Position numbers and translations under genes: made by a program. DNA of 64,000 bases. Source: Thiohalobacter sp. GTDB taxonomy: Bacteria > Pseudomonadota > Gammaproteobacteria > Thiohalobacterales > Thiohalobacteraceae. Below the pieces are notes generated by a model. That model was not told where the DNA came from, did no database searches, and worked only from the letters and a program-made list of their open reading frames with translations. Below, piece after piece: positions 46,235-50,114 of the stretch. The DNA lies in the NCBI RefSeq assembly GCF_027000115.1, contig NZ_JALTON010000049.1:51231-115230 (forward strand), written 5' to 3'. The stretch's first letter is position 1. The number at the start of each line of letters is the position of its first letter.

Positions 46235-47567
46235 TCTGTCCGAGGCGGCCGCGGTGCTGGATGCCGAACTGATCGGCGAGAACCTGGTGGTGGAGGGCGT
46301 GTCCACGGATACGCGCGCCGTCCGGCCGCAGAACCTGTTCGTGGCCCTGGTCGGCGACCGCTTCGACGGTCATGCCTTTGTGACCGCGGCCGCCGAGCGC
46401 GGTGCGTCGGCGGCCGCGGTGATGCGCGAGGTGGAGGCGCCCCTGCCCATGCTGCGGGTGGCCGACACCCGTCTTGCGCTGGGCGAGCTGGCGCGTGCCT
46501 GGCGGCAGCGCTTCGACATCCCGCTGGTTGGCGTGACCGGCTCCAATGGCAAGACCACGGTCAAGGAAATGACCGCCGCCATACTCGCCCTGCAGGGGCC
46601 GGTGCATGCGACGCGCGGCAACCTCAACAACGACATCGGTGTGCCCCTTACCCTGTTCGAGCTCGGTGCCGAGCACCAGGCGGCGGTGATCGAGATGGGC
46701 GCCAATCACGCTGGCGAGATCGCCCGGCTGACCGACATTGCGCGACCGACGGTGGCGGTCATCACCAACGCGGGGCCGGCGCATCTGGAAGGCTTTGGCA
46801 GCATCGAGGGCGTGGCCCATGCCAAGGGCGAAATCTTTTCCGGTCTCGGCCCGCAGGGTACGGCGGTGATCAATGCCGACGATGCCTGGGCCGGTCTGTG
46901 GCAGGCGCTGGCCGCCGGTCGTACCCGGATCCACTTCGGTACCGGTCCCGACGCGGACGTGCAGGTGCGGCGCCAGGCAGAGGGGGAGGGTTCGCGCCTG
47001 CACCTGAGAACGCCCTGGGGTGCCTTCGAGACCCTGCTGCCCCTGCCGGGCGCGCACAACGCGCTCAATGCCGCAGCCGCCACGGCCTGCGCGCTGGCCG
47101 CCGGTGCCACCCCGGAGATGGCTGCGGAGGGGCTGGCCCGGGTGCAGGGTGTGCAGGGTCGGCTCCAGCCGCGCAGCGGCGTGCGGGGCTGCCGGCTGGT
47201 CGATGACAGCTACAACGCCAATCCGGCCTCGCTGGACGCGGCCCTGGACTGGCTCGCCACCCGGCCCGGGCGGCACTGGCTGCTGTTGGGCGACATGGGC
47301 GAGCTGGGCGAGGAGGGCCTGGCCCTGCATGCGGCCATGGGTCGCCGTGCGCGCGAGTCCGGCGTCGAGCGTCTCTACGGCCTGGGCGAACAGGCAGCGG
47401 CCGCGGTCGAGGCCTTCGGTCCCGGTGCCGTCTGGCAGGCCGACCGGGATGTGCTGGTCGAACGGCTGCGCGAGGAGCTGGCCGAGGATGTCTGGCTGCT
47501 GGTGAAGGGTTCGCGTTTCATGCGGCTGGAAGAGATCGTGGCCGCACTGGCCGGAGGGGAACGCTGA
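46221..47567 (+). CDS. murF: UDP-MurNAc-pentapeptide synthetase MurF
   Basis: 448 aa. Adds D-Ala-D-Ala to the tripeptide. ATP loop [10 protein letters not shown] at residues 104-113; [11 protein letters not shown] and DSYNANPAS are family signatures. ATG 46221 (GGAGG upstream) lies inside the murE end. Confidence 0.97.
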
Positions 47568-48649
47568 TGCTGCTCTGGCTTGCCGAATACCTGACCCAGT
47601 ACCACAGTGGCTTCAATGTCTTCCAGTACCTGACGCTGCGCGGCATCCTCGGCGTGCTCACTGCCCTGCTGATCTCTTTCCTGGTCGGGCCGCGCATGAT
47701 CCGCTGGCTGGGGCACTACCAGATCGGCCAGCAGGTACGCGACGACGGCCCCCGGAGTCACCTGTCCAAGGCCGGTACCCCGACCATGGGTGGCGCGCTC
47801 ATCCTGGTGGCCATCACCCTGGCTACCCTGTTATGGGCAGACCTGTCCAACCGCTACATCTGGGTGGTGCTGTTCACCACCCTCGCCTTCGGTGTCATTG
47901 GCTGGGTGGACGACTACAAGAAGCTGGTGCTGGGCAATTCGAAGGGCCTGCCGGCACGCTGGAAATACTTCTGGCAGTCGGTGGTGGCGCTGGGAGTGGC
48001 CCTGTTCCTCTATTTCACTGCACAGTCGCCCGTAGAGACCCAGCTCATCGTGCCCTTCTTCAAGGACGTGGCCGTCGATCTGCACTGGTGGTACGTGCCA
48101 CTGGTGTATTTCGTCGTCGTCGGATCTTCCAATGCAGTCAATCTCACCGATGGCCTCGACGGCCTGGCCATCCTGCCCACGGTGATGGTGGCCGGTGCCC
48201 TGGCGGTGTTCGCCTATGCCACCGGCAACGCCCGCTTTGCGGAGTATCTGGCCATTCCCTATGTGCGCGACGCCGCGGAGCTGATCGTGTTTGCCGGTGC
48301 CATGGTGGGCGCCGGGCTGGGCTTCCTGTGGTTCAACGCCTATCCGGCTCAGGTGTTCATGGGCGACATCGGTGCCCTGGCGCTGGGTGCGGCGCTGGGC
48401 ATGGTGGCGGTACTGGTGCGGCAGGAACTGGTGTTCTTCCTGATGGCCGGCGTGTTCGTCATGGAGACGGTGTCGGTGATCCTGCAGGTGGCCTCCTATC
48501 GGCTCACGGGGCGGCGCATCTTCCGCATGGCGCCCCTGCATCATCATTTCGAACTCAAGGGCTGGCCGGAGCCCAGGGTCATCGTGCGCTTCTGGATCGT
48601 GACCGTGATCCTGGTGCTGATCGGGCTGGCCACGTTGAAGATTCGCTGA
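47567..48649 (+). CDS. mraY: phospho-MurNAc-pentapeptide transferase MraY
   Basis: 360 aa with ten predicted membrane helices. Makes lipid I on undecaprenyl phosphate. Catalytic-site segments: [28 protein letters not shown], and [11 protein letters not shown]. Start overlaps the murF stop by one base. Confidence 0.97.
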
Positions 48650-48659
48650 GGAGGGGAAG

Positions 48660-48734
48660 ATGGATGTGCAGCAGCAGATGAAGATCGTCGGCATTACCTT
48701 CGTGGCCATTGCGCTGGTGTTGCTGGTGGCCTGA
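48660..48734 (+). CDS. 24-aa putative membrane microprotein
   Basis: MDVQQQMKIVGITFVAIALVLLVA: a short polar start and one hydrophobic helix from about residue 8 to the end. GAGGAGGGG immediately upstream is one of the strongest ribosome sites in the cluster. It lies between mraY (10-nt gap) and murD (12-nt gap). No family recognised. It could be a real small protein or a translation-coupling leader for murD. Confidence 0.55.
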   Translation: MDVQQQMKIVGITFVAIALVLLVA

Positions 48735-48746
48735 GCCGGGACGGAG

Positions 48747-50114
48747 ATGCATGCAATCATGACAGCGCGGGAGTCCAGGACGGGCGAGACGCAACGCAAG
48801 GTGCTGGTGGTGGGGCTTGGGCGCACCGGTCTGTCCGTTGCGCGCTTTCTCGCCGCCCGTGGCCATCAGGTGGCGGTGACCGACACCCGCCCCGAACCGC
48901 CGGGCCTGGACGAGATCCGGCGCAGCCTGCCCGACGTCGCCCTGTTCCTGGGCGGCTACGATGCCGACGCCTTTGCCAGTGCCGAGCAGATCGTGGTCAG
49001 TCCCGGAGTGCCGCTGGGTCATCCGCTGATCGCCGAGGCACGCTGCCGCGGCGTGGAAGTGATCGGGGACGTGGAGCTGTTCGCGCGCGTTGCACAGGGA
49101 CCGGTGATCGCCGTCACCGGTTCCAACGGCAAGAGCACGGTCACCCGCTGGGTGGCGGACATGGCGCGTCGCGCCGGCCGCGAGGTCCGCGCCGGTGCCA
49201 ACCTGGGTACGCCAGCGCTGGATTTGCTGCAAGGCGGTGAACCCGACCTCTATGCGCTGGAACTGTCCAGCTTCCAGCTCGAAGCCATCGAGAGCCTGCG
49301 CCCGGTCGCAGCCGTGGTCCTGAACGTGAGCCCGGACCATCTGGATCGCTACCGCGGCTTGCCGGAATATGCAGCCGCCAAGGCGCGAATCTATCGCCAT
49401 GCGGCGATGCAGATCGTCAACCGTGATGACCCCTTGGCCGCTGGCCTGGCCGACCCGGCCCGGCCGTGTGTCGGCTTCACCCTCGGCGTGCCGGCGGGGA
49501 AGGACTTCGGGATCCGCCAGCGCGAGGGCGAGGACTGGCTGGTACGCGGCGAGGACTGGCTGCTGCCGGCCTCCGCCATCCGCCTGGCCGGTCGCCACAA
49601 CCGCGCCAACGCGCTTGCGGCGCTGGCGCTGGCACAGGCCGCCGGCCTGCCCATGCCTGCCTGCCTCGACAGCCTGCGCGAATTTCCCGGACTGCCGCAC
49701 CGTACGCAGTGGGTGGGTCGGCGCGCCGGTGCCGATTGGTACAACGATTCCAAGGCGACCAACGTCGGTGCCACGCTCGCGGCGCTGGAAGGTTTCGATC
49801 GGCCGCTGGTACTGATCGCCGGCGGCCAGGGCAAGGGCCAGGACTTCTCGCCGCTGCGCGAGCCCGTGTGTTCGCGGGTGCGGACCCTGATCCTGATGGG
49901 GCAGGACGCCGATGCCCTCGCTGCGGCCATCGGCGACTGCGTGCCGGTGGCGCGGGCGGGAGACATGACCGCAGCGGTGCGGGCGGCTGCCGAATGCGCC
50001 CGGCCCGGTGACGCGGTGCTGCTGTCTCCGGCCTGTGCCAGCCAGGACATGTTCCGCGACTTCGAGCAGCGCGGCGAGCAGTTTGCGCGGGCGGTGGAGG
50101 CCTTGCCGTCATGA
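48747..50114 (+). CDS. murD: UDP-MurNAc-L-Ala:D-Glu ligase MurD
   Basis: 455 aa. Nucleotide-binding start LVVGLGRTGLSVARFL, ATP loop TGSNGKST at residues 124-131, C-terminal domain with WYNDSKATNVGAT. ATG 48747 chosen with GGGA five bases upstream; in-frame ATG 48759 is possible. Ends in an ATGA overlap with ftsW. Confidence 0.96.
   Translation: MHAIMTARESRTGETQRKVLVVGLGRTGLSVARFLAARGHQVAVTDTRPEPPGLDEIRRSLPDVALFLGGYDADAFASAEQIVVSPGVPLGHPLIAEARCRGVEVIGDVELFARVAQGPVIAVTGSNGKSTVTRWVADMARRAGREVRAGANLGTPALDLLQGGEPDLYALELSSFQLEAIESLRPVAAVVLNVSPDHLDRYRGLPEYAAAKARIYRHAAMQIVNRDDPLAAGLADPARPCVGFTLGVPAGKDFGIRQREGEDWLVRGEDWLLPASAIRLAGRHNRANALAALALAQAAGLPMPACLDSLREFPGLPHRTQWVGRRAGADWYNDSKATNVGATLAALEGFDRPLVLIAGGQGKGQDFSPLREPVCSRVRTLILMGQDADALAAAIGDCVPVARAGDMTAAVRAAAECARPGDAVLLSPACASQDMFRDFEQRGEQFARAVEALPS

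Follow-up and report, generated by a model that had tools for sequence, protein, structure and literature searches.

The 64,000-nucleotide stretch analysed here, hereafter the window, comes from Thiohalobacter sp. (contig NZ_JALTON010000049.1, positions 51,231 to 115,230 of the forward strand) and carries a 24-codon open reading frame (ORF) between the cell-wall genes mraY and murD. By comparison of related genomes, this ORF was shown to be a genuine protein-coding gene under purifying selection, and we refer to its product as the microprotein. The initial annotation, which had described a frame of 24 residues with a strong ribosome site and a spacing of 10-12 nt to its neighbours, was right in every detail. 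The gene and its surroundings are laid out as follows.

48660..48734, + strand: microprotein gene, 24 codons, MDVQQQMKIVGITFVAIALVLLVA, with an ATG start and a TGA stop; identified by homologues, selection and helical periodicity
48648..48656, + strand: Shine-Dalgarno (SD) site GAGGAGGGG of the microprotein, overlapping the mraY stop codon; -12.6 kcal/mol
47567..48649, + strand: mraY, the upstream neighbour, encoding the putative partner; TIGR00445, 457.8 bits
48747..50114, + strand: murD, the downstream neighbour; TIGR01087, 417.8 bits
50111..51328, + strand: ftsW, directly after murD, encoding an alternative candidate partner; TIGR02614, 433.9 bits

The microprotein ATG lies 10 nt from the mraY stop, and 12 nt separate the end of the gene from the first ATG of murD, whose translation could alternatively start at an in-frame ATG at 48759. 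The energy of the anti-SD duplex formed by GAGGAGGGG compares with -6.3 +/- 2.6 kcal/mol for shuffled 20-mers, pooled over the family. SD-like DNA was present upstream of all copies of the gene, with a mean of -8.9 kcal/mol vs -6.3 kcal/mol for the shuffled controls. No promoter, terminator or RNA family was found in the mraY-murD spacer of the window, leaving an RNA element at this position unsupported. The surrounding division and cell-wall (dcw) cluster comprises rsmH, ftsL, ftsI, murE, murF, mraY, murD, ftsW, murG, murC, murB and ddl, which is the standard set. The G+C content is 0.66-0.71 across this cluster (the 36001-64000 part of the window) and ~0.59-0.63 in the 1-36000 part.

To follow the gene in relatives, we inspected mraY-murD junctions in the order to which the organism belongs, represented by one family with 11 genomes, and in a second, closely related order represented by 20 genomes. 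Of the 11 genomes of the own order, 10 carry a homologous small ORF between mraY and murD, and the same small gene occupies this place in all 20 genomes of the second. Together, these 30 carriers, from two gammaproteobacterial orders, yielded 27 distinct peptides. The gene is exactly 24 codons long in 24 of the 30 and 25-27 codons long in the remaining six, and it always stands at the 3' end of mraY, never beside another gene of the cluster. No second significant copy was found in the organism's own genome. A metagenome-assembled genome in the public data (locus L037, CSMAG_2845) carries a copy whose DNA is identical to that of genome G390, and the two probably represent the same organism.

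Outside these carriers the gene is absent from the places searched. The sole member of the own family without it is G005 (loci L013/L223), in which murD follows mraY directly and no match was found elsewhere in the genome. No such ORF was seen between mraY and the next gene in ~70 further families of the class, each represented by a single genome, or in 79 of 80 public loci. In non-carriers the murD start usually lies within tens of bases of mraY; in G042 (L020), a terminator-like hairpin stands after mraY in place of murD, with no murD match in the following 1.5 kb. When 369 genomes from across the class were searched with a profile, strong matches (E <= 1e-6) appeared in the two orders only, with the next match at 5e-4. 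Whole-genome matches beyond the two orders were weak (E > 5e-4), and we attribute them to chance, as none of the three next-best, which were examined, lay in an mraY-murD junction. A microprotein-like 38-codon frame, DIRWQVRLIGITFLYCQM, at G206:C42:6020-6064 (L130), with E = 0.02 per genome, was likewise rejected as a chance match lacking a start codon, and with a larger profile neither G206 nor its order gave a match at E <= 0.05. The orders to which G093 and G094 belong likewise gave no match in microprotein searches.

In a tree built from MraY and MurD, both orders fell into one strongly supported clade, together with G093, which lacks the gene. A tree with all carriers in a single clade, the two orders together, was not rejected (p-AU, from the approximately unbiased test, 0.72). 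The simplest history suggested by these data would be one gain in the common ancestor of the two orders and one loss in G005.

To assess coding status, we determined the ratio of nonsynonymous to synonymous differences per site (pN/pS) from Nei-Gojobori counts for each order, with the two remaining reading frames of this DNA as a control. We obtained ratios of 0.63 for the own order and 0.30 for the second (median pairwise dN/dS, the corresponding ratio of substitution rates, 0.51 and 0.18, respectively), vs 0.96-2.5 in the two other frames. Variability was lowest at codon position 2 and highest at position 3. We also performed a randomisation on disjoint pairs of sequences, in which the number and kind of substitutions were kept (5000 draws). 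In the own order, 32 amino acid changes were observed vs 40.7 +/- 2.8 expected (P = 0.0012); in the second order, 50 were observed vs 81.3 +/- 4.3 expected, a value that no draw reached (0/5000, P < 0.0002). In the same genomes, the last 30 codons of mraY gave a ratio of 0.08-0.10. Judged by these ratios, the microprotein evolves faster than MraY yet under clear constraint. The initial annotation had proposed a membrane microprotein here and had named a lack of conservation, or a ratio near one, as evidence to the contrary; neither was found, and its proposal is supported by a conserved frame under purifying selection.

The pattern of conservation within the peptide is that of a helix with one conserved face. 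Across the 27 distinct peptides, Met1 and Gln6 are invariant, Val10 and Phe14 each occur in 26, Thr13 occurs in 24, and position 17 holds either Ile or Met throughout; position 21, on the same face, is Leu or Trp. Positions 7-24 form one stretch of nearly all hydrophobic or small residues that reaches the last residue. Along positions 6-22, the information content rises and falls with a period of 101 degrees per residue, which matches the turn of an alpha helix (permutation p = 0.0044). From this composition and periodicity we infer a single helix. The stripe Gln6-Val10-Phe14, with positions 13, 17 and 21, is what a helix predicted to pack on a partner, or on itself, needs. An orientation with the N-terminus in and the C-terminus out, the short N-terminus lying in the cytoplasm, is suggested only tentatively, since the N-terminal charges are not the same in the two orders.

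Searches of Pfam, NCBIfam, PHROGs and the PDB with the peptide or the alignment returned nothing usable, and no PDB chain matched up to E = 10. In particular, no sequence homology to a named family of the CydX/AcrZ/KdpF kind was found in Pfam, NCBIfam or the PDB. One homologue, 1 of the 27 members, matched MgtR (NF033229) with 17.7 bits vs a curated cut-off of 35; the window's own peptide gave no match. Our literature searches, which covered part of the literature, turned up no description of a small protein in the mraY-murD interval. At 24-27 amino acids, the microprotein falls within the size of small single-helix accessory proteins, which have fewer than about 50 residues and one hydrophobic helix. 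The microprotein family is new and unnamed, and its functional kind is a known one.

Like CydX, AcrZ and KdpF, the microprotein is shorter than 50 amino acids, has one hydrophobic helix and is conserved beyond one genus. CydX and KdpF are encoded in operons with the genes of membrane enzymes, as is the microprotein. In contrast to these proteins, with which it shares no common sequence family, it is shorter (24 amino acids), is encoded in a peptidoglycan gene cluster and has a putative partner. AcrZ binds the membrane part of AcrB and, together with lipid, alters AcrB activity (PMC7267776); CydX is needed for the function of cytochrome bd (PMC6005532). A transmembrane helix acting on MraY is also known: it belongs to lysis protein E of phage phiX174, a 37-residue peptide of whose membrane part inhibits MraY, and protein E binds helix 9 of MraY (PMC11812184). 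The microprotein differs from protein E as described there in being encoded by a host gene, in having no proline in any of the 27 peptides and in lacking the protein E motif. The control of MraY itself has been described as an intrinsic feedback that requires no other protein, in which externalised lipid II acts at the dimer interface of the enzyme (PMC10914600).

Taking the position and the peptide features together, we put at about even the chances that the gene product is an accessory single-pass microprotein of the lipid-I/II machinery, one that would most likely be bound to MraY. It would be made together with MraY from the dcw transcript and would insert in the membrane as one helix, and its conserved face may pack against one of the membrane proteins of the lipid I/II pathway, MraY being the most likely. 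There it could be a small accessory subunit, tuning the activity of the enzyme, its dimer or lipid contacts or its stability in the manner of AcrZ with AcrB or CydX with cytochrome bd. More tentatively, it might be a lineage-specific host transmembrane subunit that binds and tunes MraY, which catalyses the first membrane step of peptidoglycan synthesis, possibly at the lipid-facing surfaces that also serve phage protein E or lipid II feedback. Because most relatives and G005 do without it, the microprotein is an add-on, not a core part, and is not universally essential. Its loss in G005 and its absence elsewhere indicate that it is not generally required for MraY and more likely tunes than enables the enzyme. 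The earlier suggestion that such a peptide could modulate lipid I/II synthesis is plausible in view of its invariant place by mraY and its conserved helix face.

Several observations weigh against this reading. Selection in the own order is moderate, with dN/dS about 0.5. No clear signal emerged when MraY and MurD were searched for carrier-specific residues. MraY of G005 has 8 departures from sites that are invariant in carriers, vs at most 5 in any carrier, and 4/8 of these changes lie around helix 9 (p = 0.01, post hoc); however, a non-carrier control with 3/8 such helix-9 changes nearly matches this, so the excess in G005 does not discriminate. Furthermore, operon position alone does not prove the partner, which is inferred.

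We consider it rather unlikely that the product is a real single-pass microprotein whose partner is a membrane protein other than MraY, such as FtsW, the FtsQ/FtsL/FtsI divisome or the envelope more generally. The coding and helix-face evidence would suit any membrane partner, and ftsW stands directly after murD; however, the gene is joined without exception to the 3' end of mraY. It seems unlikely that the peptide acts alone or as a homo-oligomer, for instance as an envelope-stress or membrane-property peptide for which the operon provides constitutive expression. One conserved face suits self-association too, and the failure to find clear carrier-specific sites in MraY fits this explanation, whereas a single copy at a fixed position in 30 genomes lacks the mobility expected of toxin-like peptides.

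A role as a proteolysis adaptor of the MgtR kind, in which the helix would bind a membrane protein and hand it over to FtsH, appears improbable. MgtR, which the microprotein resembles more loosely than it does CydX, KdpF and AcrZ, is likewise a very small, operon-encoded membrane peptide; it has 30 amino acids, binds a membrane protein and promotes the degradation of MgtC (PMC6813294). However, it belongs to a different operon, and the sub-threshold match noted above reaches half of the cut-off in a single member and is expected from shared hydrophobic composition.

The tight spacing on both sides and the strong ribosome site could also mean that the ORF serves only to couple murD translationally or to space it, its peptide having no role. 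The initial annotation had offered such coupling as an alternative, but as the sole role it is disfavoured, and we regard it as very improbable. Coupling would exert no selection for Gln6, Val10 and Phe14 and would leave the helix periodicity and the purifying selection in one frame unexplained. Furthermore, G005 and the ~70 other families have murD after mraY with no microprotein between them. Finally, a chance ORF in the spacer, an explanation suggested by its shortness and by a GC-rich genome in which spurious ORFs are common, is refuted by the conservation of frame, length, start and residues in 30 genomes of two orders.

Conserved genes of 24 codons escape recognition even in a bacterial operon that ranks among the best studied. 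The essential enzyme MraY is a target of antibiotics, and the peptide known to act on it is the lysis protein of a phage. Retained next to mraY in two orders, a host microprotein would be a natural candidate for a regulator of this enzyme and may offer a lead for MraY-binding peptides.
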